IMG/VR virus record: IMGVR_UViG_3300025168_000442
Location: 1 to 29,254 of that record
Reading direction: 5' to 3' (one strand)
DNA: 29,254 bases
Source: a virus
How positions within the stretch are numbered: position 1 is the first letter of the stretch; each line of letters begins with the position of its first letter. This document shows, one piece after another, positions 19,501 through 28,641 of the stretch. A program made the position numbers and the translations under genes. The notes under the pieces were generated by a model. The model searched no databases, was not told where the DNA came from, and worked only from the letters and a program-made list of their open reading frames with translations.

Positions 19501-21564
19501 TAATAGTTCACCCATTCCTTCCGCCGAACCTGCAAAATAATTAATTACCCCGTCTGGTAAATTAAACAATCCTTCTTTAAATATTTCAAACCCTGTTGCA
19601 TCTCCGTAAAACTTTTTACCTTCAGCAAGAGCTGCTGCTCTCATTTCATCAATTTTGTTTTGATCTGTAGGAAACTTACCTTGATCTGAATATAAACTTT
19701 CATAACTTGGAAGTTGACCCATTTGAAATTGATTGATGTCATAAGGATCGTAATCATTTAATCTGCTACCTTCAGCAAACTTAGGAGGACCTCCGTCTTT
19801 TAGTTTACCTTTTTCTGCAGGGGCTCCTATGTAAACTTCAGAGCCATCTTCATCTACATACATTGCTCTAAGGTTTCTTTTCTTTAATTTACTTTCAATA
19901 CGATTCATTTTTTCGGTATTACCTTTTGCTAAAGCTTCTTTATATTGAGCCATCTGTTTATCTTTAAATAAATTATCTTTTGAAATTTCTGTCGTATATC
20001 TTTCACGGTTCGCCGCTTCTCCAAAAAGTATATCTCCTTGCGCTATGCTTCCTGTATGTCCTAGAGTTTCTCCTGAATTGTAAAAATTTCTTCTTCCATC
20101 TAATAAAGTAGCTTTATTATTAGCTGTTCTTTGTATTTTATCTTTAATGTAATCTGCAAGGTAAGGATCTTCATTTCTCATAATTGTATCAATAACTACA
20201 TTGGTTGCTGCTCTTATATTTTCTTCTGAATAAACATCTCCTTTTACTTTATTTGGATTCTCTTCTCTTATAGCAATTCTAAAATCTTGATCATAACGAT
20301 CCATTTGTGGTTTAGAAATTTTAATTCCTAAATCATTAGCATACTGTCTTATATTTTTTTCAAATTGATTTTGAGCTGTTTGATAAGAACTTAATTTTCT
20401 TTCATCTTTTTTTCTGTTTCCAAACAATTGATTTACTATTCTTTCATATGTTTTCATTTGAAAATCAATTCCATGTTTATCTATAAAATGTTGTCTTATT
20501 ATTTCTAAGTCAGGTCTCCCTGTTATAGAAGAAGTATACAACCTGTCTTTCATTGCTGGGTTGTCCTCTAAAAACTGTGGTAATTCTTTTCTAACTGTTT
20601 TTCCATCATTAACTCTTTTTAATTCATCTTTATTTTTAAATTCATCTTTGACTACACGGTAGGTTCTACCGTCTGATTTTCTTTCTTTAATTTCTGTCTG
20701 ATCTTTTTTATATGTTTTACCAGCTATTGTAACAGTATCTTTAGTGCTATCTCCCATAGTCAAAATAGTAAAATCTTCTATCTCTGGTATTGGAAATCCT
20801 GTATTCGTAGGTAATTCAATAGGTGGTACAGATGTTGGAGGTAATTTTGTTTCTATTTCTGGTACTGCTCCTCCTGTAGTTGTAGGTATATCAATTTTTG
20901 GAGAAGGGCGGTTAACATTACGTCTTGCTTCCGCTTCTCTCGCTTGTCTTTCTTTTTCCATAGCATCAGCATCAGGACCAATTTCAATACTTCCATCTCC
21001 TCTTTGTCTTACATCGTTACCAAAATAATTTATATTACCGTATTCACCTCTGTCTGCTGCATCTCTAACTTTGTCAGCTACAGTTGCTGATGTTCTATTT
21101 CTTCTTGCTTCATCTATTGCTGCTTGTCTCTCTGCTTTTTTTCTCGCTACTTCCTCAGGATCTGAACTTAAATCACCTGCGTTTCCTACGCCGGGAATAT
21201 TACTTTCCATTAACTGTGCATTAGCACCTAACGTGCCATCACCCATTTGAGTAGTAACTAAATTACTGAGAAAAGGAACTCTTGTACCAATAAACTTTGA
21301 TGCTTTACCAAGACGTCTTAAAATGTCATCGTAATCTATAAATGCTCCAGGGGCCATGGTTGCCGAACCAGACGCAAATCTAGGTACACCACCATTTCTT
21401 TTTTCATCAACCAAACTTAGAGGGGGATATAATATTTTGATAATCTCATCATATTCATCTTTTGTAATATCACCACGAGACAACTGCGTGTCTGCAGCTT
21501 TTCTACCCATATGTAAAAGTAAACTGCTAAGTCCTACAGGTTGTCCGATTCTTTCATCATCCAT
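16552..21564 (-). CDS. Giant polyvalent virion protein (QSDxH ... PFK module)
   Basis: 1670 residues. Residues 1-60 are helical. Residues about 61-67 read PRFASGS, about 594-600 PKFAEGS, and close to the C-terminus HADGGRV. A Pro/Thr linker near 215-265 repeats itself (IPTTTGGAVPEIE and LPTNTGFPIPEIE). The C-terminal part carries two halves of a module seen in phage polyvalent proteins: ENIMEAQSDVHRGS at about 1155-1168 and PFKKQKDWVKNVL from 1501, followed by GKTNVSWNPGEIVGVYES and a final GLPMHADGG. In most such proteins the halves are much closer. Here more than 300 residues lie between them. Probably injected with, or packaged beside, the DNA. Enzymatic activity unknown. Its place between TerL and portal is unusual; both junctions are TAATG. 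Confidence 0.7.
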   Translation of the reverse strand: MDDERIGQPVGLSSLLLHMGRKAADTQLSRGDITKDEYDEIIKILYPPLSLVDEKRNGGVPRFASGSATMAPGAFIDYDDILRRLGKASKFIGTRVPFLSNLVTTQMGDGTLGANAQLMESNIPGVGNAGDLSSDPEEVARKKAERQAAIDEARRNRTSATVADKVRDAADRGEYGNINYFGNDVRQRGDGSIEIGPDADAMEKERQAREAEARRNVNRPSPKIDIPTTTGGAVPEIETKLPPTSVPPIELPTNTGFPIPEIEDFTILTMGDSTKDTVTIAGKTYKKDQTEIKERKSDGRTYRVVKDEFKNKDELKRVNDGKTVRKELPQFLEDNPAMKDRLYTSSITGRPDLEIIRQHFIDKHGIDFQMKTYERIVNQLFGNRKKDERKLSSYQTAQNQFEKNIRQYANDLGIKISKPQMDRYDQDFRIAIREENPNKVKGDVYSEENIRAATNVVIDTIMRNEDPYLADYIKDKIQRTANNKATLLDGRRNFYNSGETLGHTGSIAQGDILFGEAANRERYTTEISKDNLFKDKQMAQYKEALAKGNTEKMNRIESKLKKRNLRAMYVDEDGSEVYIGAPAEKGKLKDGGPPKFAEGSRLNDYDPYDINQFQMGQLPSYESLYSDQGKFPTDQNKIDEMRAAALAEGKKFYGDATGFEIFKEGLFNLPDGVINYFAGSAEGMGELLAGLFEATKKGAQIQSFPTDKIANPDQRNISRSSPDYSPFSEEFQALLDKPAFTKYFDEFRDKIPTPNLTESTLSGMTMDELGRTAGYYTGPPTAVLTAPGALAKYLKGSRAVDKPAPISEASRLSETEEVVSPTGAQIDETVEVTDTTRQVTEPKVEIQKPRLDPAEVERVESLDTYIVPRFSKIEDYVQTKYAGSASKTKKKLSQWKKEMEDGDGAGALNEMKDTGMSFQISNLIKEGGDQTIDALTFLKIGQDLLQNNNQIKRGYSEFYGAGQLGENAGAVKAGNEISPDITRRAIKDAKQELVNVPITATGNSGRVLQEYKMAVQSMINELETMAGGTSKRTFAGVEDPSVVIQKYTSTVLPNILRKANNPNINLLYTEAQKLNQIVNRFKRLNVNPRLTSNFQGTGWPGTRTEDYTIMEQGFNPQKGQSSRHEFHNSGHPNSDNSISFSRSIDKTTTDGRVTENIMEAQSDVHRGSTSYQSPEDIAGIDILENAEKKLRPQAEKALDDAWDNFSKDNKLYNFDTDPINMPIGETVPDMFEVQLKAGSADNPIWEVINTRTKRKVPKKSFGTEDDAQVFADAKTKLEASKEAKKPKPTGFDVKVDQVANDLYGESFKNLGLNQKQNVKRSILDNYGTINQQMIDDANEFLSGLTQASKKELGRAKNKNFLDAQRISKLNPGDSAFGNYDKFWSRKMSSGDEGQKSLLERIANQDLPRNTRSFEGLDRAVQNIKDLLDSSQGGQVRGGMFGGVDTFDAIKAQIVADTKMPIEEFLARLFPDEVKFAGSYTDISKNAQLRRARYESGSQDYPFKKQKDWVKNVLKSHIEKAISEGKTNVSWNPGEIVGVYESADAKDIAGYKTIYNKLMKEAAEDLNKDLMERAAKLGLDPESARIKISGVGDDMNFTLQFDGDGINSYSQAAPDLVKKSFDGRKMEVSGLPYVDFTEAKDTIRKIGLPMHADGGRVGSKLPDVDEILGTI

Positions 21565-23045
21565 TAGTAATATCTCTCCTCGCTCCCGTAATCAGGAACA
21601 GTTGGTTCTTCGTAATAATCATCAGGTAATGTAACAAAATTTCCTTGGCGAAAACGTAGCACAGCTTGTGTTGTTGAGTCAACATAATCATCGTTGTCAC
21701 CAAAGGGAAAGGCAGCACATTCCTCAATGACTTCTTGCGCCCACCTCTTATCTGGAACCCAAATTTGGCCTGCTTCAAATACCGGTGCTACAGCGTTTAC
21801 TCGTACATGTTTATCATTTCCTTTGCTCGGTGTAAAGTTCGTAACTGGAATTCCGATCTGTCTTAGTTCATGGGTCAGGGGTAATCCAGATGCTTTAGCT
21901 TCCACGATTACTGTCTCCGGTTCAAACTCTCTGTACTTCTCTAATGCTTTTCTTTTGAGTTCAGGAAACTCCCATCTACCTCTCACCGCATCAAGTAAAA
22001 TTAAATAGACTTTGCCATCAGCTTCTGAAGTGAACACACCCCACGTTGTAATAGCACTATAGTCTGCAGTTTCTTTTTTTGAGTACGCCGTATCATAACT
22101 TTGTATAACATGTTGTATGTTGTTGGGTGGATCATCAGATTCCCATTTCATCCACCACTCTCTTTTAATAATAGATCCTTCTTCAGAGGTTGGTTGTTGC
22201 TGCCACTGTGCTTGCCACTTCTGTTCATTCAAGGAAGCTTTGACCGATAACAGTTCATCCTTCTTCCAATACTCAGGCCATATAGGATTACCTGTCTTAG
22301 GAAAGATTGCAGGGAATTCTATTAGATCCCATTGATCTGCTTTAACTTCTTTTTGTGCTCCTACTAATCTACCTGTCAAATCTTTGGTAGACCACCTTGT
22401 CATAACAATAACAATGATACCTCCGGGCTGAAGTCTTTGTCGTGGTCCTGAGGTGTACCACTCGTAGGCATTATCGAACGCTGTTTCTGATAAAGCATCT
22501 TGCTCGGAATGAGGGTCATCAATAATGAGAAGATCTGCACCACGACCGGTGATAGCTCCACCTACCCCTGTTGCGAAATACTCTCCACCTTTATTGGTCT
22601 CCCATCTTCCTGCTGCTTTACTATCGGCTGATAGTTCGACATCTTTGAATACTCGTTTGTAATCTTCGTGATCCATCAGGTTTCTTACTTTTCTTCCAAA
22701 GCGGAAGGCCAGTTCGCCAGTGTGCGTTGCTTGTATGATCTTGGTTTTTGGTGCATGGCCCATGATCCATGCTGGAAGTAAATAGGATGCAAACTCAGAC
22801 TTCGTGTGCCTTGGAGGCATGTTCACGATCAATCGTTTTAATTTTTTATCTTTTATTAATTGAAATTTTTCTGCAATTTTTTGATGATGATATCCTGAAA
22901 TAAACTCTGGCCATACTGCTTTAACAAAGTCCAAAAAATTTTCTTTTGCTTTAGCAGAGGTATCTAATTCTTTTTGTCGAAGTTCTAACTTCAACATTAG
23001 ATCTTTAGCTTCATCAGGATTTGTGGTTTCAAAATCCAAAGACAT
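21564..23045 (-). CDS. Terminase large subunit
   Basis: 493 residues from ATG at 23045. An in-frame TTG at 23060 is possible but has no ribosome site. The ATPase domain has the Walker A variant PPRHTKSE at 77-84, Walker B LLIIDDPHSE at 172-181 and a coupling-type VMTRWS near 214. The RNase H-like nuclease domain has SYDTAYSKKETADYSA (Asp at about 318), VIVEAKASG (Glu at about 382) and DDYVDSTTQA (Asp at about 456). All key acidic residues are present. It pumps DNA through the portal and cuts concatemers. TerS lies over 3 kb upstream, beyond an accessory region. No ribosome site precedes the ATG. Confidence 0.95.
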   Translation of the reverse strand: MSLDFETTNPDEAKDLMLKLELRQKELDTSAKAKENFLDFVKAVWPEFISGYHHQKIAEKFQLIKDKKLKRLIVNMPPRHTKSEFASYLLPAWIMGHAPKTKIIQATHTGELAFRFGRKVRNLMDHEDYKRVFKDVELSADSKAAGRWETNKGGEYFATGVGGAITGRGADLLIIDDPHSEQDALSETAFDNAYEWYTSGPRQRLQPGGIIVIVMTRWSTKDLTGRLVGAQKEVKADQWDLIEFPAIFPKTGNPIWPEYWKKDELLSVKASLNEQKWQAQWQQQPTSEEGSIIKREWWMKWESDDPPNNIQHVIQSYDTAYSKKETADYSAITTWGVFTSEADGKVYLILLDAVRGRWEFPELKRKALEKYREFEPETVIVEAKASGLPLTHELRQIGIPVTNFTPSKGNDKHVRVNAVAPVFEAGQIWVPDKRWAQEVIEECAAFPFGDNDDYVDSTTQAVLRFRQGNFVTLPDDYYEEPTVPDYGSEERYY

Positions 23046-23149
23046 TTCTAGTATGTACAATTTTTTTTAAAATTTTTCAACCGACTTGTTTCTGACAGTG
23101 AATGGGGTGGGGCTGACTGTGCAAAACAAGCACTAAAGGTGCACAACCT

Positions 23150-23200
23150 AATGTAACAGGTAGTAAGGGGGAAAGGGCGTGGAAGTGTAAGGATTATTAA
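23150..23200 (-). repeat. Spacer box A (most degenerate copy)
   Basis: Aligns without gaps to boxes B-F. AAAGGGCGTGGAAG at 23173-23186 (plus) is well kept; the TTTC position reads TTAT. The TATACT position is poorly kept (TACATT with a one-base shift). It is the second box of the pair in spacer 1, 105-130 bases before terL. Confidence 0.5.
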
Positions 23201-23355
23201 ACTAAATATATGTAGGGACTCCAAGGGCTTTGGCTACTAGATATAGTATTGTATTGTACATGATGACCAACACCTGCCATCTCAGGACGCTGCACCTGCT
23301 GCACCAGCCCTGGGCTGCGGGTGAATTTGCCTGGATCGGAAGCGAGCCAGTCTTA

Positions 23356-23406
23356 AATATAATAAAAGAAATTAGATAAAGGCGAGGAAGTACAGGGATT
23401 TCAAAC
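23356..23406 (-). repeat. Spacer box B
   Basis: Gapless match to the family: TATATT at 23361-23356 on the minus strand, GGCGAGGAAG at 23381-23390 and GATTTCAAAC at 23397-23406 (plus). It begins 17 bases after the stop of the preceding gene at 23423. Unlike the other copies its TTTC core forms the loop of an 8-bp hairpin, so here it may also terminate transcription of that gene. Confidence 0.6.
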
Positions 23407-23422
23407 CCCTGTACTGAAATGA

Positions 23423-23662
23423 TTATCTATTTATATTGAAGTTGTTAGCTAACTCTTGAGCTAACTTAAGACCATACGCACTAACTTGAGGTATGTCTTT
23501 ATTCTGTAGTATGAATTCAAATATACTACTATCTAAATAACTTGCTAACATCTGCCAATTAACTTGCTCTTGACCATTCTCCACAGTTTCAATGAGTGAA
23601 TTAGGTCTAACTGTGCTAACTGCATTAGCTTGTCTTAATATGTCTAAGTAATTATCTGGCAT
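23423..23662 (-). CDS. Hypothetical accessory protein
   Basis: 79 residues, acidic to neutral and helical (NYLDILRQANAVSTVRP, then VNWQMLASYLDSSIFEFILQ, ending LAQELANNFNINR). It overlaps the upstream gene by 11 bases, with AAGGGTG before ATG, so the pair forms one translational unit. No family recognised. It is the second gene of the accessory cassette between boxes C and B. Confidence 0.6.
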   Translation of the reverse strand: MPDNYLDILRQANAVSTVRPNSLIETVENGQEQVNWQMLASYLDSSIFEFILQNKDIPQVSAYGLKLAQELANNFNINR

Positions 23663-24026
23663 TAGACACCCTTAATAGTTTAACAAGTTCACTATCAACA
23701 TTATTAGAACTACCACTAACATTCTTTATAGTAACGCTAGTAGATGTTTTATAAGGAATAGATAACTTCTTAGAAGTTAATAGTTTTTTAACTTCTGATT
23801 GGTTAAGTATATCACGACTTGATTGTGATATTGCATAAGTGTCTGTGCCATGCTCAAAAACAAAATTCTTTTTATCACTAACTAATTTGTTATTAGCTAC
23901 GATTTCAGTAAATTCATTCCTAAGTTGGTTAACTAACTTATCAATACTATTCTTAATATCTAAGGCAACACGATACTCAACAAGAGTAGCAACAGCCTTG
24001 TCATTTAATTTAGATTTCTTAGTCAT
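23652..24026 (-). CDS. Hypothetical accessory protein
   Basis: 124 residues with a clear AGAGGT ribosome site. Helical N-terminal half (ATLVEYRVALDIKNSIDKLV) and a Lys/Ser-rich C-terminal half with SEVKKLLTSKKLSIPYKTS. No Cys, membrane segment or catalytic motif. It is the first gene of a two-gene cassette bounded by repeat boxes. No family recognised; the helical, basic nature would fit a small DNA- or protein-binding factor. Confidence 0.6.
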   Translation of the reverse strand: MTKKSKLNDKAVATLVEYRVALDIKNSIDKLVNQLRNEFTEIVANNKLVSDKKNFVFEHGTDTYAISQSSRDILNQSEVKKLLTSKKLSIPYKTSTSVTIKNVSGSSNNVDSELVKLLRVSNAR

Positions 24027-24161
24027 TATAACCTCTTTCTAAATGGTTTAATCAATTAACTATTAATTGATAAGTAACTAAACAACTTATTATAACTAAT
24101 TGCAACATAATAAATAAATAGTTGTGCATAACTTTTTTCAGCACGGACCGTACTTCTGTGA

Positions 24162-24212
24162 AGTATAAGAACAACTTACAGCAAAAGGCGTGAAACCTAG
24201 TGGATTTCAAAC
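24162..24212 (-). repeat. Spacer box C
   Basis: TATACT at 24167-24162 and, upstream on the minus strand, TTGAAATCCACTAGG leading into TTTCACGCCTTTT (24210-24184). Spacing between the two parts is identical to boxes B and D-F. The flanking inverted repeat (GAAACCT/AGGTTTC) folds the upstream part of this copy. It is the second box of its pair, about 135 bases before the 24026 start codon. Confidence 0.65.
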
Positions 24213-24285
24213 ACACGCTTCAGCCATCAGGTTTCGAATCAACAGGAATGGCACAGTTCTGCGAAAAACTGTTGACAAAATCCAC

Positions 24286-24302
24286 GGTCCGGCCGGCCGG
24301 CC
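24286..24302. repeat. GC palindrome with GGCCGGCC, spacer 2
   Basis: GGTCCGGCCGGCCGGCC in an otherwise AT-rich genome. It is self-complementary over 12 bases and lies 7 bases from TATACT of box D. The same GGTCCGGCCGGCCGG string recurs at 25168-25182. Either a stem-loop at the 5' end of a transcript or an operator. Confidence 0.75.
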
Positions 24303-24308
24303 AACCAA

Positions 24309-24360
24309 AGTATAAAGATCTATTTAAAAAAAGGGCGTGGGAATCAAGGTATTTCGTCAA
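24309..24360 (-). repeat. Spacer box D, overlapping the end of the 52-residue gene
   Basis: TATACT at 24314-24309; GACGAAATACCTTGA and CCCACGCCCTTTT upstream on the minus strand. The stop codon of the preceding gene (24346-24344) lies inside the box. A GGCCGGCC palindrome begins 7 bases past TATACT, in the region where a transcript would start. Confidence 0.65.
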
Positions 24361-24502
24361 TCCATCGCACGATATCAGGAGCTGCGGTGAACGCAGCTAC
24401 ACCAGTGGCCAGGATAAATGAAAACACAAGAGCCAACAAAGGGTTCCTGCCTGTAAAGATCAAGAACCCTAATGAAAACCAAAAGACCAATTGAAACTGC
24501 AT
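24344..24502 (-). CDS. 52-residue two-helix membrane protein
   Basis: ATG at 24502 overlaps the TGA of the previous gene (TGATG), then 52 codons to TGA at 24344. Two hydrophobic helices (FQLVFWFSLGFLIFTG and LLALVFSFILATGVAAF) are joined by a short RNP turn and followed by a polar tail APDIVRWIDEIP. The coupled start, clear topology and clean stop make it a real gene. The stop codon lies inside repeat box D. Function unknown; a membrane partner of the protein encoded just before it is plausible. Confidence 0.75.
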   Translation of the reverse strand: MQFQLVFWFSLGFLIFTGRNPLLALVFSFILATGVAAFTAAPDIVRWIDEIP

Positions 24503-24843
24503 CACGCTGCAGCCTCCAGCATCTGCTGCATCTGCGACCAGGCCGCAGCTTCAGAGTCAACCAGGACATGTGCACCATCTCCCCAATCCAGGAACCAATA
24601 TTCCAAGCGGTGAATTTCTTTATGTTCGTTAACGTAAGCCCTGAGCTCATCCGATGGACCACCCCAGCTGAACTGCCAGCGCCAGTAGCCTTCTATCTGA
24701 TCATTAAATGTATTAGGCTCTACATAATCAAAGCTAAGCGCATCATATTCAGGATCCTTCAGGTCCTCCTGCCTTTCTTTCCATTCTTGCGTAACACGCT
24801 CGGCGCAGGTGGGTTGTCTCTTCAATACTGTTACAGTCTCCAT
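24502..24843 (-). CDS. Conserved phage protein with SWGGPSDE signature
   Basis: 113 residues from ATG at 24843, chosen because AAAGGA precedes it. A longer frame upstream lacks a ribosome site. Acidic, tryptophan-rich core: EGYWRWQFSWGGPSDELRAY at about 51-70 and RLEYWFLDWGDGAHVLV at about 79-95. This pattern is familiar from small conserved phage proteins, often followed by a small membrane protein, as here. Function unknown. First gene of the cassette between boxes E and D. Confidence 0.7.
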   Translation of the reverse strand: METVTVLKRQPTCAERVTQEWKERQEDLKDPEYDALSFDYVEPNTFNDQIEGYWRWQFSWGGPSDELRAYVNEHKEIHRLEYWFLDWGDGAHVLVDSEAAAWSQMQQMLEAAA

Positions 24844-24939
24844 GTTGTTCCTTTCTTTAATGGGGGCGTTTGCAAAACTTCTAAACGGATTCGGTACCCC
24901 CACTACATATATAGTTATAACTTATTATAATGTAAAGCA

Positions 24940-24957
24940 AAAAGATTTAAATCTTTT
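24940..24957. promoter_or_regulatory. Perfect 18-bp palindrome, possible operator
   Basis: AAAAGATTTAAATCTTTT reads identically on both strands. On the minus strand it is followed about 10 bases later by TATAAT (within CATTATAATAAG), so it would overlap the -35 region of a promoter for the 24843 gene. A dimeric repressor or activator site is the simplest reading. Confidence 0.45.
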
Positions 24958-24992
24958 GGATAAGTTCCCGCATGGTATGAACAACTCAGCTG

Positions 24993-25005
24993 CCCCGGCC
25001 GGCCG
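24993..25005. repeat. GC palindrome with GGCCGGCC, downstream of box E
   Basis: CCCCGGCCGGCCG, 7 bases past the TATACC of box E on the minus strand. Shorter and lacking the GGTCC flank of its relatives at 24286 and 25168. Confidence 0.65.
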
Positions 25006-25011
25006 TCAATT

Positions 25012-25061
25012 GGTATAAGAGATAGATATAGAAAAGGGCGTAAGACCTAGTGTATTTCAAC
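25012..25061 (-). repeat. Spacer box E
   Basis: TATACC at 25017-25012 with TTGAAATACACTAGG and TCTTACGCCCTTTT upstream on the minus strand. Same internal spacing as the other copies. Preceded by CCTGATG, as are boxes C and F. It is the second box of its pair, about 170 bases before the 24843 start codon. Confidence 0.65.
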
Positions 25062-25167
25062 CATTCCCCAGCAGCTCCTGGCTGCAGCTGCGGGCATCAG
25101 GATTCATGCTTCATAAAAAAACCGCAGAAACCCTAGAGTATTTAACACTTGACAGAGGCGAAAACAC

Positions 25168-25182
25168 GGTCCGGCCGGCCGG
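25168..25182. repeat. GC palindrome with GGCCGGCC, downstream of box F
   Basis: GGTCCGGCCGGCCGG, 6 bases past TATACT of box F on the minus strand. Identical to the first 15 bases of the spacer 2 copy. Both copies are followed on the minus strand by CGTG and then TGTCAA. Confidence 0.75.
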
Positions 25183-25188
25183 TAACTT

Positions 25189-25239
25189 AGTATAAGGAAT
25201 AGAAAATAACTAAGGCGTGAAAGTCAGTGTATTTTGAAG
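25189..25239 (-). repeat. Spacer box F, overlapping the nuclease stop
   Basis: TATACT at 25194-25189; TTCAAAATACACTGAC and TTTCACGCCTTAG upstream on the minus strand. The upper part encodes the last residues of the nuclease (QNTLTFTP) and contains its TAG stop at 25212-25210. First box of its pair. Confidence 0.65.
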
Positions 25240-25635: not shown

Positions 25636-26065
25636 TACTAACTTCCTTTTTTGTTAATATTTTATGGCAATTTGAACACAAAATATCACACTTTTTTACC
25701 TCTTTGACTATGTTATCGAGCTGTACCCAACTGCTTTTTCTAATATTTGACACATTATTACACTTACTATTTCTATCACGATGATGAAATTCTAAAGCAT
25801 AAGGACTCTCCTTGTAGCCACATTTTTGACAACCTTTACTTAATTTATAATTGTTTAAATAATTAGATACTTTGTCATACAGATTCTTTTTGTATAATTT
25901 CTTTTTAGCTAAATTCTTTTTAAAACTATTTGGCTCTCTCCAGTTCTCTTTAAAATATCCATCTCTTTTTAATCTTACTGTTATGTAACCATCAAATATA
26001 TAACCATCTTCTCTAGCATCACCACAAACAAAAAAAATGTTAGTCTTGGGATTCAATCTCTTCAT
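25625..26065 (-). CDS. HNH endonuclease
   Basis: 146 residues. Residues 1-70 are basic with IFFVCGDAREDGYIFDGYIT. The C-terminal zinc-bound HNH fold has CQKCGY at 79-84, LEFHHRD at 91-97 and ILCSNCHK at 128-135. Three of the four zinc cysteine positions are paired CxxC motifs, and the catalytic His is in FHH. It overlaps TerS by 26 bases and has no strong ribosome site, so it depends on TerS translation. HNH proteins encoded next to terminase genes are known to assist genome cutting in some phages. A homing endonuclease is the alternative. Confidence 0.75.
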   Translation of the reverse strand: MKRLNPKTNIFFVCGDAREDGYIFDGYITVRLKRDGYFKENWREPNSFKKNLAKKKLYKKNLYDKVSNYLNNYKLSKGCQKCGYKESPYALEFHHRDRNSKCNNVSNIRKSSWVQLDNIVKEVKKCDILCSNCHKILTKKEVSSAS

Positions 26066-26525
26066 GAGGTACGTCTACAATTACTTCCGGAAATCTATTC
26101 CTTAGATCTTTGAGCCTATCTGCTACCTCGACCTTACTCATCTTATCAATTGACCCAGTCAATATCTCTTTACGATCTATGTATAATCCAGCAGCTCTTC
26201 CTCGTGAAACTTCTGCATTAACAGCTGCCGAGTAATTTTTTTCTGACTCTGCATTTTTACTTAACTCATCTAATCTCTTCATATGTCTTGTCATATTAGA
26301 CATATACTTTTTGTGAATTTCTTCTCTTAATAAGGATATATAATTAGCAACTTTTGGAAACTCTTTAGCTGATTGCAATCTACTAGCATATATTCTAGCT
26401 GTCTTTTTTGGATAACCGGATAATATAGCACATTCAGTTGCACTTTTATCTCCATCATATCTGACTAAAAGCTCTGCAAACTTTCTTTGTTTCGAAGTTA
26501 TTTTAATTTCAGTTAATTGACTCAT
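26040..26525 (-). CDS. Terminase small subunit
   Basis: 161 residues. An N-terminal helix-turn-helix at about 11-50 (KQRKFAELLVRYDGDKSATE, then CAILSGYPKKTARIYASRL) is followed by a coiled-coil region. The conserved SRGRAAGLYIDRKEILTG and SIDKMSKVEVADRLKDL then follow, typical of phage TerS. It recognises the packaging site and loads TerL. No ribosome site is visible. The ATG overlaps a preceding stop (ATGA), so it may rely on coupling. It is separated from terL by two nucleases and an accessory region. Confidence 0.8.
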   Translation of the reverse strand: MSQLTEIKITSKQRKFAELLVRYDGDKSATECAILSGYPKKTARIYASRLQSAKEFPKVANYISLLREEIHKKYMSNMTRHMKRLDELSKNAESEKNYSAAVNAEVSRGRAAGLYIDRKEILTGSIDKMSKVEVADRLKDLRNRFPEVIVDVPHEEIESQD

Positions 26526-26743: not shown

Positions 26744-26956
26744 CTAAAAAAATTTAGGATCTAACATTAACAATTCTTTAGGAATATACATATGACGTCT
26801 CATAGCATTAAATCCTTTACGAACCAGTTCCTGCCACACTTCTGACTTTACAATGACATCATTTTTGGGGTTGAGAAAATGCAATGTTACTCTGCCACAT
26901 TTGTGACAATGTTTAACTTCCTTGATTGGACTGTTTGGCAGTGAATAAGAGGACAT
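26744..26956 (-). CDS. Small protein with one CxxC motif
   Basis: 70 residues with a strong GGAGGG ribosome site at 5 bases. VKHCHKCGRVTLHFLNPKN at about 14-32 holds a CxxC pair and His; the rest is basic and helical (VWQELVRKGFNAMRRHMYIP). It could bind one metal with His partners. It overlaps its upstream neighbour by 44 bases in another frame. No family recognised; likely regulatory or nucleic-acid binding. Confidence 0.65.
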   Translation of the reverse strand: MSSYSLPNSPIKEVKHCHKCGRVTLHFLNPKNDVIVKSEVWQELVRKGFNAMRRHMYIPKELLMLDPKFF

Positions 26957-27116
26957 TGTCTCCCTCCAATTGTTTTAATTTATGTTTAATAACGTTTTTA
27001 TCAAAAATATTGTACTTTGCAAGTAAAGCAAGCGCCCTGGCGCTCTTGTTTGTAGGGCGCAAGCCTTTGATTAGTCGATCTAATAATTTCTTTTGGACAT
27101 CTGTTGTTGTATACAC
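26913..27116 (-). CDS. Small helical protein, GTG start, hairpin-covered RBS
   Basis: 67 residues from GTG at 27116, 7 bases after AAGGA. A nearer ATG is in a different frame and too close to the site. The sequence is helical with a wHTH feel (VQKKLLDRLIKGLRPTNKSA, then ALLAKYNIFDKNVIKHKLKQ). The ribosome site is part of a perfect 9-bp stem (27126-27164), so translation may be controlled. Possible DNA-binding regulator; no family named. Confidence 0.6.
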   Translation of the reverse strand: MYTTTDVQKKLLDRLIKGLRPTNKSARALALLAKYNIFDKNVIKHKLKQLEGDNVLLFTAKQSNQGS

Positions 27117-27125
27117 TTCATTATC

Positions 27126-27164
27126 CTTCCTGGAATTTCGGACTTCACCTACTTATCCAGGAAG
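27126..27164 (-). promoter_or_regulatory. Inverted repeat that can hide a ribosome site
   Basis: On the minus strand CTTCCTGGA (27164-27156) and TCCAGGAAG (27134-27126) form a perfect 9-bp stem around 21 bases. The second arm contains the AGGAAG of the ribosome site for the GTG at 27116. In RNA it could block initiation; as DNA it could be an operator. Confidence 0.55.
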
Positions 27165-27197
27165 TTATTATACAACAAATTTACATTTGTCGCAAGA

Positions 27198-27518
27198 TTA
27201 CCCTCCAAACTTGTAATTATCAGTTCTTTTACAAGGTTCGCAGAATCTCTGTAACACAGAAGATATATCAAATTTTTGATAACATAAATTACATCTACGT
27301 TGACCAATCTTCTCTGATGCAGGCATATATCTCTTTATCTGCCTGTGTTTAAATTTTGGTGTATGACCATTTTTAATCCTTATCCTATGTAATCTACCCG
27401 CAACCGAGTTCTTACTTTTGTTCATTCGTATGGCAATATCTCTTACCCTTACACCTTTTTGATCCAATTCAATAAGTCTCGCATTATCTTCATCGCTCCA
27501 CATGTTTTCCACGTCCAT
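27198..27518 (-). CDS. GcrA-like regulator with zinc ribbon
   Basis: 106 residues from ATG at 27518, which follows AAGGAGAG. An upstream in-frame start lacks such a site. Residues 7-48 follow the GcrA HTH pattern: MWSDEDNARLIELDQKGV then IAIRMNKSKNSVAGRLHRI, with the WSDE opening and the V-x-G-R-x-H-R recognition helix. The C-terminus has C76/C79 and C93/C96 as a zinc ribbon. GcrA is an alphaproteobacterial sigma70 co-activator at methylated promoters. Phage versions may redirect host transcription. GcrA itself is about 170 residues, so this is a short form. Confidence 0.65.
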   Translation of the reverse strand: MDVENMWSDEDNARLIELDQKGVRVRDIAIRMNKSKNSVAGRLHRIRIKNGHTPKFKHRQIKRYMPASEKIGQRRCNLCYQKFDISSVLQRFCEPCKRTDNYKFGG

Positions 27519-27625
27519 AAATCTCTCCTTTTTGTTATTTTGTTCACGAACCACACATCATCAACATCACTGTAGACATATGTAATCACTTTATCTTTCT
27601 TAATAGTGTTATAATATATAGTCAA
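27449..27625 (-). CDS. Possible small protein overlapping the GcrA-like gene
   Basis: 58 codons from TTG at 27625, placed 8 bases after GGGGAGGAG, one of the strongest ribosome sites in the window. The first half looks protein-like (TIYYNTIKKDKVITYVYSDV, then DDVWFVNKITKRRDLW). The last 70 bases overlap the GcrA-like gene in another frame. There is no other candidate start for that ribosome site. Still weak evidence. Confidence 0.35.
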   Translation of the reverse strand: MTIYYNTIKKDKVITYVYSDVDDVWFVNKITKRRDLWTWKTCGAMKIMRDLLNWIKKV

Positions 27626-28046: not shown

Positions 28047-28183
28047 GTATCTTCTCCTTTAACATATGTTTTGCGATCAGTTGCCAACCAACCAATTACA
28101 CCGTAATGTTGTGAATTGTAAATTTGTAACCAAATTAAAGTTGGTTCTTTTTTTCTAAAATAATTAAATATCTTCTTTATCAT
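28034..28183 (-). CDS. 49-residue protein with strong RBS
   Basis: ATG at 28183 follows AGGAGG at 5 bases and lies inside the end of the upstream gene. The frame runs 49 codons to TAA at 28034, overlapping the next gene by 13 bases. Sequence: basic amphipathic start (MIKKIFNYFRKKEPTLIWLQ), then IYNSQHYGVIGWLATDRK. No family recognised. The ribosome site and both overlaps make it a likely gene. Confidence 0.65.
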   Translation of the reverse strand: MIKKIFNYFRKKEPTLIWLQIYNSQHYGVIGWLATDRKTYVKGEDTWRR

Positions 28184-28457
28184 TCTTACCTCCTAATACT
28201 ATATCACCTGCAATTGCAGCATAACCTGCCATATCAACAAAATGATCTTTCACTGCTTTTCTTGATTTAGTTCTACCAATCTTTAACAACACCATCATTA
28301 TTGCTACTTCATCAGCAGTAATAGGCATGTTTAAATATGCACTCCATAAATCAGCTATGTTGTTATTATTGCTTACGCACTCACCATGAGTAAATTCACG
28401 AGACGCTACGGCCTCGTTAGCTTCTTCTAATATATCAGTTTTTACATCATCCGACAT
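28164..28457 (-). CDS. DUF6378-like protein
   Basis: 97 residues from ATG at 28457, preferred over the ATG at 28463 because GAGG is 7 bases away. NIADLWSAYLNMPITADEVA at about 33-52, then IMMVLLKIGRTKSRKAVKDH and FVDMAGYAAIAGDIVLGG follow the all-helical DUF6378 pattern known from phages. The fold recalls small MazG-like helical proteins with acidic residues facing a core, but no nucleotide activity can be claimed. Overlaps both neighbours. Confidence 0.7.
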   Translation of the reverse strand: MSDDVKTDILEEANEAVASREFTHGECVSNNNNIADLWSAYLNMPITADEVAIMMVLLKIGRTKSRKAVKDHFVDMAGYAAIAGDIVLGGKNDKEDI

Positions 28458-28641
28458 AATCATACCTCTTTCTCATTATTTTATGTAATCGTTCCCAATG
28501 CATACGATCAGAAACTTCTTTCCAACTTGTGCAATCTCTTTTTGCACGTTTACCTGCTTCGAAATAAGCAGCATAAATTCTTTCTTTTAATCTTCCTGAA
28601 TAATAACTTTTACTTTTTGCAGGAGTTTTTATACGAGCCAT
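28447..28641 (-). CDS. Small basic hypothetical protein
   Basis: 64 residues from ATG at 28641; an in-frame TTG three codons earlier is less likely. Lys/Arg-rich with aromatic residues (KSKSYYSGRLKERIYAAYFE, then CTSWKEVSDRMHWERLHKI). Overlaps the upstream 43-codon gene by 13 bases and the DUF6378-like gene by 11. No family recognised. Confidence 0.55.
   Translation of the reverse strand: MARIKTPAKSKSYYSGRLKERIYAAYFEAGKRAKRDCTSWKEVSDRMHWERLHKIMRKRYDYVG

Follow-up and report, generated by a model that had tools for sequence, protein, structure and literature searches.

A GcrA-type DNA-binding domain joined to a four-cysteine tail in a viral protein, and a neighbouring gene that covaries with promoter-like cassettes

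Here we report that a gene of a 29,254-base virus record (G+C 36%; "the window" below means this whole stretch) encodes a 106-residue protein in which a helix-turn-helix (HTH) of the GcrA type is followed by a four-cysteine tail. On balance, we favour the view that this protein binds DNA and regulates transcription for the phage, and that it derives its DNA-binding domain, but not the sigma-interacting domain (SID), from the GcrA architecture. We also report that the cores of promoter-like cassettes in the same clade vary together with a neighbouring 67-residue protein rather than with the 106-residue protein.

Results

An intact, selected gene in a clade of viral contigs

The gene (27198–27518, minus strand) starts with an ATG at 27518 that has AAGGAG just 5' of it; an alternative, longer reading from a GTG at 27554 is possible. 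Seventeen other viral contigs encode the protein, with identities of 69 to 100%; the 16 contigs from the first search were aligned with the window (alignment A1, 17 rows), and L031 is an additional contig. Values of dN/dS against nine relatives are approximately 0.03 to 0.23, indicating purifying selection and, thus, that the open reading frame is not a chance one. A sequence-only reading had proposed an HTH N-terminus and a four-cysteine C-terminus for this frame, and that proposal is borne out by the intact gene, the purifying selection, and the invariance of the cysteines.

The large terminase subunit of the window (TerL; 21564–23060, minus strand) is 64–67% identical to those of the Pelagibacter phage HTVC027P (64%), 023Pt_psg01, and DSL-LC04, and 58% identical to that of the Pelagibacter phage HTVC023P. 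The small subunit (TerS) lies at 26040–26525, minus strand (PHROG 51, E 3.5e-12). Across the clade, as far as each record extends, one gene order is seen repeatedly: small genes, the 106-residue protein gene, the 67-residue protein gene, o26744, TerS, an HNH-like gene (Pfam HNH E 0.034, below the cut-off), a VRR-type nuclease gene, promoter-like boxes, and TerL; the labels HNH-like and VRR-type are our presumption, made from weak matches. Between the boxes, in part of the clade only, lies a reading frame (24502–24903, minus strand) that weakly matches PHROG 36747 (E 3.4e-7), a family without assigned function, and at 28164–28463, minus strand, lies a clear DUF6378 protein (E 5.8e-25). A tRNA search found none, and the window and nine loci gave no Rfam match at the gathering threshold.

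The complete records of HTVC027P, HTVC023P, 023Pt_psg01, and DSL-LC04 were searched with a profile and yielded no 106-residue protein; Pfam GcrA, too, matched none of these four relatives at E <= 10. The HTH gene annotated upstream of TerS in DSL-LC04 likewise has no GcrA match. A genome_contigs search found no relative. The first 49 kb of HTVC027P contain no annotated RNA polymerase gene, and the window itself is a fragment.

The N-terminal domain is homologous to the GcrA DNA-binding domain

The best Pfam match of the 106-residue protein is GcrA (PF07750), at E 3.1e-5 and 24.8 bits versus a cut-off of 26.9 bits. The match spans residues 6–69 only and ends at position 66 of the 155-position profile. 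Two of ten relatives scored singly pass the cut-off (L011, 29.5 bits; L014, 27.4 bits), and in L017 Sigma70_r4_2 scores marginally above GcrA. Aligned by hhalign with the N-termini of 20 bacterial GcrAs, taken from 80 loci, the N-terminus of the clade gives a probability of 93.2 and an E of 3e-7. Higher values against phage GcrA N-termini (99.2) and against a mixed full-length alignment (98.5) were not relied upon, because the phage rows had been gathered with an alignment that contained the query.

The reciprocal search leads to the same family. A profile of the clade matched 24 of 289 alphaproteobacterial genomes at E <= 1e-3 (265 without a match), and the 12 best of these 24 matches all carry the GcrA C-terminal motif. 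Thirteen of the 24 were examined; the thirteenth (L208, the single match of a Caulobacter genome) is a protein with two HTHs and without the motif, and is not a GcrA. None of the alphaproteobacterial matches extends beyond query residue 88. Five clade members and seven bacterial GcrAs have the same residue at eleven positions. Five of these (N37, V39, G41, H44, and R45) fall in the predicted recognition helix (residues 36–49, KNSVAGRLHRIRIK), which is itself invariant in A1 except for S or A at position 38 and carries I48V in L031. Identity to bacterial GcrA over the DNA-binding domain is 26–29%.

Structure models agree with the profile results. The AF2 model of the protein (mean pLDDT 77) has helices at residues 9–20, 25–32, and 36–49, and it superimposes on the GcrA DNA-binding domain 5yiu with Z 8.1 and an rmsd of 1.8 over 48 residues. 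We conclude, from profiles and model together (Pfam, hhalign, AF2, and VIA-align), that residues 7–49 (27372–27500, minus strand) are homologous to the GcrA DNA-binding domain. The earlier proposal that the HTH follows GcrA is upheld by the GcrA profile search, by hhalign, and by the reciprocal genomes, with a Pfam score that stays below the cut-off. Two results argue for caution about a particular closeness to GcrA, and the 265 genomes without a match and L208 count on the same side. The best PHROG of the HTH is PHROG 323 (D5-like regulators; E 6.3e-7), which outscores PHROG 16311 (E 0.0017), a family to which most of the length of a true GcrA can be matched; and the Z of 8.1 to 5yiu is tied with Myb domains, for example with the spliceosome protein 8i0p_L (Z 8.1), which we take to be CDC5.

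The protein lacks the sigma-interacting domain, and GANTC is not enriched

GcrA consists of a DNA-binding domain (residues 1–45), a linker, and the SID (residues 108–173), which is the part that binds sigma70 region 2 (portions of PMC7403470). All 20 bacterial GcrAs carry a SID motif that we wrote ourselves, C-x-[WFYA]...C...YCxx[HC], and so do 32 of 34 distant phage proteins that had been retrieved through their HTH; the 106-residue protein does not have it. The GcrA SID has a conserved C/C/C/H set of its own, the spacing of which is unlike that of the four-cysteine tail; homology between the two was not found, and hhalign of the tail against a SID profile gave a probability of 0.4% and no alignment. 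Judged by its sequence, the 106-residue protein is not a GcrA.

The sequence-only reading described GcrA as a sigma70 partner that senses GANTC methylation, and suggested that the phage may redirect host polymerase. For the 106-residue protein, a GcrA-like partnership with sigma70 is not supported, the sigma70-binding domain being absent, and neither is GANTC sensing. The window contains 61 GANTC sites versus 78.6 expected, a mild depletion; the corresponding ratio is 0.69–0.84 in five other clade records scanned and, for the four relatives that lack the 106-residue protein, 0.79–0.96 over their first 49 kb. Eight of the 61 sites lie between genes versus 7.6 expected; overall there is no enrichment, and an argument from enrichment to methylation sensing was rejected. 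The sequence-only reading had also proposed a check for GANTC sites near phage starts: by raw count, five of the eight intergenic sites fall in the box region described below, which speaks in favour of that reading, and one of the five window boxes listed contains GANTC. Host genomes are also depleted in GANTC but are enriched in it between genes (portions of PMC3973325).

It is very improbable, in our estimate, that the protein works as a full GcrA, recognising methylated GANTC and bringing host sigma70 polymerase to promoters of the phage or the host. The GcrA-type HTH, the known homologues in phiCbK-like phages (part of PMC3556154), the presence of a CcrM homologue in SAR11 bacteria (part of PMC3973325), and the five intergenic sites in the box region would fit such a role; the absence of the SID, the GANTC counts, and the occurrence of weakly similar HTHs (E 3e-4 to 0.8) in phages of Salmonella, Bacillus, and Thermus speak against it. 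A passage of PMC2877005 implies that a cluster including part of the Rickettsiales, with Pelagibacter named in the context, is without CcrM and GcrA.

The same absence of the SID would suit a decoy, which would occupy host GcrA sites and block rather than activate the host GcrA promoters, and the five recognition-helix residues held in common with all seven aligned bacterial GcrAs would suit it as well. A decoy would presuppose a GcrA in the host, however, and the domain identity to bacterial GcrA is only 26–29%; we regard a decoy as unlikely.

The tail is a predicted zinc ribbon

The tail carries C76xxC79-x13-C93xxC96 (27231–27293, minus strand). The four cysteines are invariant in 17/17 rows of A1 and in L031, so that both CxxC knuckles of the C4 zinc-ribbon or treble-clef pattern are present and conserved. 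Modelled alone, residues 58–106 give a beta hairpin followed by a helix (AF2; pLDDT 74). Fold matches to this model are weak (best Z 2.1, with YacG, 4tma, among the rows; best Foldseek E 2.2), and the missing fold match is not taken as a sign of a new fold. The tail alone found no match at E <= 10 among 50,697 phage records and no useful PDB or Pfam match. The cysteine pattern and the model would fit a zinc ribbon.

Alternatively, the protein might be a DNA binder left over from, or accessory to, a homing endonuclease or the packaging machinery; it would then be no transcription factor. TerS and the possible HNH gene are nearby, and the HTH weakly matches the HNH PHROG 20467 (E 0.3). Residues 58–106 contain no conserved histidine, however, and the HNH-type catalytic His/Asn between the zinc knuckles is absent; the gene, moreover, is intact and under selection in the aligned relatives. 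We consider this origin quite improbable, and a transcription regulator remains our preferred reading.

Promoter-like cassettes with an atypical -35 region recur between TerS and TerL

Six promoter-like cassettes ("boxes") lie on the minus strand at 23150–25237, in the TerS–TerL region. Five have the core ACGCC: those at 25188–25237 (with -10 TATACT and CCGGCCGGCCGG downstream), 25011–25060, 24308–24357 (which contains GATTC), 24161–24210, and 23150–23199, the last being a weaker, sixth cassette that the pattern of the box table missed. The cassette at 23355–23404 has the core TCGCC. The layout comprises an AAAT element (in 5/6), the core at the -35 position, and a TATA-like -10. The atypical -35 region noted earlier was confirmed: the six boxes read CGCCTT or CGCCCT, with the TATA-like -10 17 to 18 bases downstream. 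GGCCGGCC stands near the expected start in three of the six.

These GGCCGGCC palindromes (24291, 24997, and 25173) lie just 3' of the cassette -10 in an A+T-rich phage and recur in the clade. W04 (52% G+C) contains four GGCCGGCC, three of them between the terminase genes, with no cassette visible around them.

All 14 records that hold the VRR gene, window included, have the cassette arrangement after it, some of them ending after one or two boxes. The 56 boxes in these 14 records have cores of two types, [AT]CGCC or CA[GA]CC, and 13 of the 14 records are uniform in type. The exception, L146 (IMGVR_UViG_3300012953_002254), has a pair of ACGCC boxes close to VRR, then a pair of CA[GA]CC boxes, and looks like a natural recombinant. 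AAATAC, the -10, and CCGGCCGG are present with both types.

The breadth of this distribution depends on the pattern used. When the six boxes of the window were turned into a strict weight matrix, strong sites were confined to the window and to G001, its near-twin; an initial view that boxes and 106-residue protein do not co-occur was withdrawn, other genomes holding cassettes with changed cores. A pattern scan of viral contigs gave 14 loci, of which nine belong to the clade and five showed none of the clade genes searched for, and the first 49 kb of each of the four named relatives (HTVC027P, HTVC023P, 023Pt_psg01, and DSL-LC04) gave no cassette by pattern. A looser pattern also matched several records, including W01 and W03, at a few places that lack the GGCCGGCC element, and these were taken for chance.

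The cassette core covaries with the neighbouring 67-residue protein

Next to the 106-residue protein gene lies a gene for a 67-residue protein (26913–27116, minus strand) of no known family (neither Pfam nor PHROG gave a match at E <= 0.05). In a search reaching close relatives only, 11 loci were found, all in contigs of the 106-residue-protein clade, and dN is below dS.

To compare, gene by gene, identity within core types with identity between core types, we used nine lineages in which the two genes and the boxes are all present. G001, L004, L147, and G005 were excluded as close copies (the 106-residue proteins of G005 and G004 are 94% identical, most of their other genes 99–100%), and L002, L006, L008, L017, L029, and L146 were excluded for missing genes or boxes. 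The 106-residue protein does not track core type: the difference is 0.5 points, the rank is 30 among 84 splits, and the nearest neighbour is of the same type in 3/9 lineages. The window protein is 98% identical to that of G002, where the core types differ, and 74–75% identical to that of L030 or L031, where the core type is shared. The 67-residue protein gives a difference of 18.9, rank 1/84, and a same-type nearest neighbour in 9/9, and one of its segments reads TNxSAR with one core type and GxSKxR with the other.

The genes between the 67-residue protein gene and VRR do not track core type (o26744, 47/84; o26522, 48/84; TerS, 40/84; HNH-like, 28/84), nor do o27665 (48/84), o27861 (13/28), o28164 (21/28), and TerL (13/28). 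Three genes that touch the boxes or lie among them do track it: VRR at 1/84 (nearest neighbours 8/9), o23652 at 1/28 (6/8), and o23423 at 1/28 (8/8). A recombination block is a less likely but conceivable cause of the tracking, given that these three genes share it. The covariation was noticed prior to testing, which took in 13 genes and nine lineages, and no rank lower than 1/84 is attainable; we therefore treat the covariation as a lead of moderate strength.

The sequence-only reading had suggested that host polymerase may be redirected, possibly to these boxes, through the 106-residue protein. That link is weakened, because core type tracks the reading frame at 26913–27116 instead. The pattern of identities makes it more likely that the variable core would be read by the 67-residue protein than by the 106-residue protein, which may act at the type-invariant parts of the boxes.

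According to a stronger form of this idea, the two proteins would make up a two-factor system like T4 MotA/AsiA, in which the 67-residue protein would read the core and the 106-residue protein would read the invariant part or touch polymerase. Both genes and the cassettes are found in one clade only, the four named relatives lack the 106-residue protein and show no cassette by pattern in their first 49 kb, the elements common to both box types would provide an invariant part, and residues 36–49 of the 106-residue protein are near-invariant. Against this, the joint presence is confined to that one clade, and so counts as one event. We think such a system unlikely.

The leader of the 67-residue protein gene

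A sigma70-like promoter, TTGCGA-17-TATAAT, is predicted by consensus match before the 67-residue protein gene (27167–27195, minus strand), in a window where a sigma70 consensus scan gave 14 matches versus 24.4 in shuffles, that is, fewer than in shuffled sequence. The promoter-like element is also found in G002, G003, L006, L008, L011, and L031, and with TATAAA in L014; as aligned, it is not found in L012, G004, G005, and L017. The leader itself contains a 9-bp perfect inverted repeat (27126–27164, minus strand).

In L005 (5356–5425), the corresponding leader reads UACGAA, a variable hairpin, and UAGGAACGG close to the start, as do those of L007, L008, L011, and L014. We take this arrangement to resemble a bulged-G (loop E/sarcin-ricin) module; the leader gave no Rfam match at the gathering threshold.

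Discussion

Our preferred reading, a phage transcription regulator on a GcrA DNA-binding domain, implies a simple scheme. The GcrA-type HTH would insert its nearly invariant predicted recognition helix into DNA, the C4 zinc ribbon would provide a protein contact, either for dimerisation or with RNA polymerase, and the protein could in this way help the phage to switch gene sets on host RNA polymerase. A more specific version, for which we would claim little likelihood, is that the clade of HTVC023P-like marine phages hijacks host polymerase with two proteins, a zinc-ribbon GcrA domain and a 67-residue cassette reader, and that the cores are switched with the type of the latter. In broader terms, this open-ocean phage group probably steers host polymerase. 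The covariation of boxes and 67-residue protein offers a concrete protein–site pair in such a group, and the two box types with their matching protein types form a ready swap system.

Among the proteins examined, the combination of HTH and C4 tail is seen in the 106-residue-protein clade only; by pattern, it occurs in 0/34 distant phage proteins and 0/13 alphaproteobacterial matches. BFVD, where the comparison was of models only, contains models of uncultured phages with weak similarity (E 4.3e-4 for one of them), so the combination may be commoner than it looks. Titles and the starts of abstracts in the literature on GcrA with phage, sigma, or zinc do not describe this architecture.

Comparison with known systems places the protein as follows. 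In T4, MotA keeps the -10 element and replaces the non-consensus -35 region with a site for a phage factor. The likeness of the present system to T4 MotA/AsiA sigma appropriation (portions of PMC6755090) is one of idea only, homology being neither claimed nor found. The D5-like phage transcriptional regulators of PHROG 323 provide the best PHROG match of the HTH, but only positions 148–199 of the 319-position profile are matched, and the tail is unmatched. Phage-encoded GcrA is known from phiCbK-like phages (part of PMC3556154) and from Agrobacterium phage Atu_ph08 (part of PMC6630229); the phiCbK-like genes, and IMG/VR contigs among L165–L198, are likewise phage genes with a GcrA-type HTH, but the IMG/VR proteins, unlike those of the clade, keep the SID motif in 32/34 cases. 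With Caulobacter GcrA (PF07750; PDB 5yiu, 5yix, and 7ye1), finally, the 106-residue protein shares the fold and the N-terminal HTH core W, L, L, G, IA, N-x-V-x-G-x-x-HR; Caulobacter GcrA has 173 residues and a SID with C-x-W...C...YCxxH, whereas the 106-residue protein has the C4 tail instead. A GcrA DNA-binding domain freed from the sigma-binding domain in this manner lets one ask, in a case supplied by nature, which function of GcrA resides in which of its parts.
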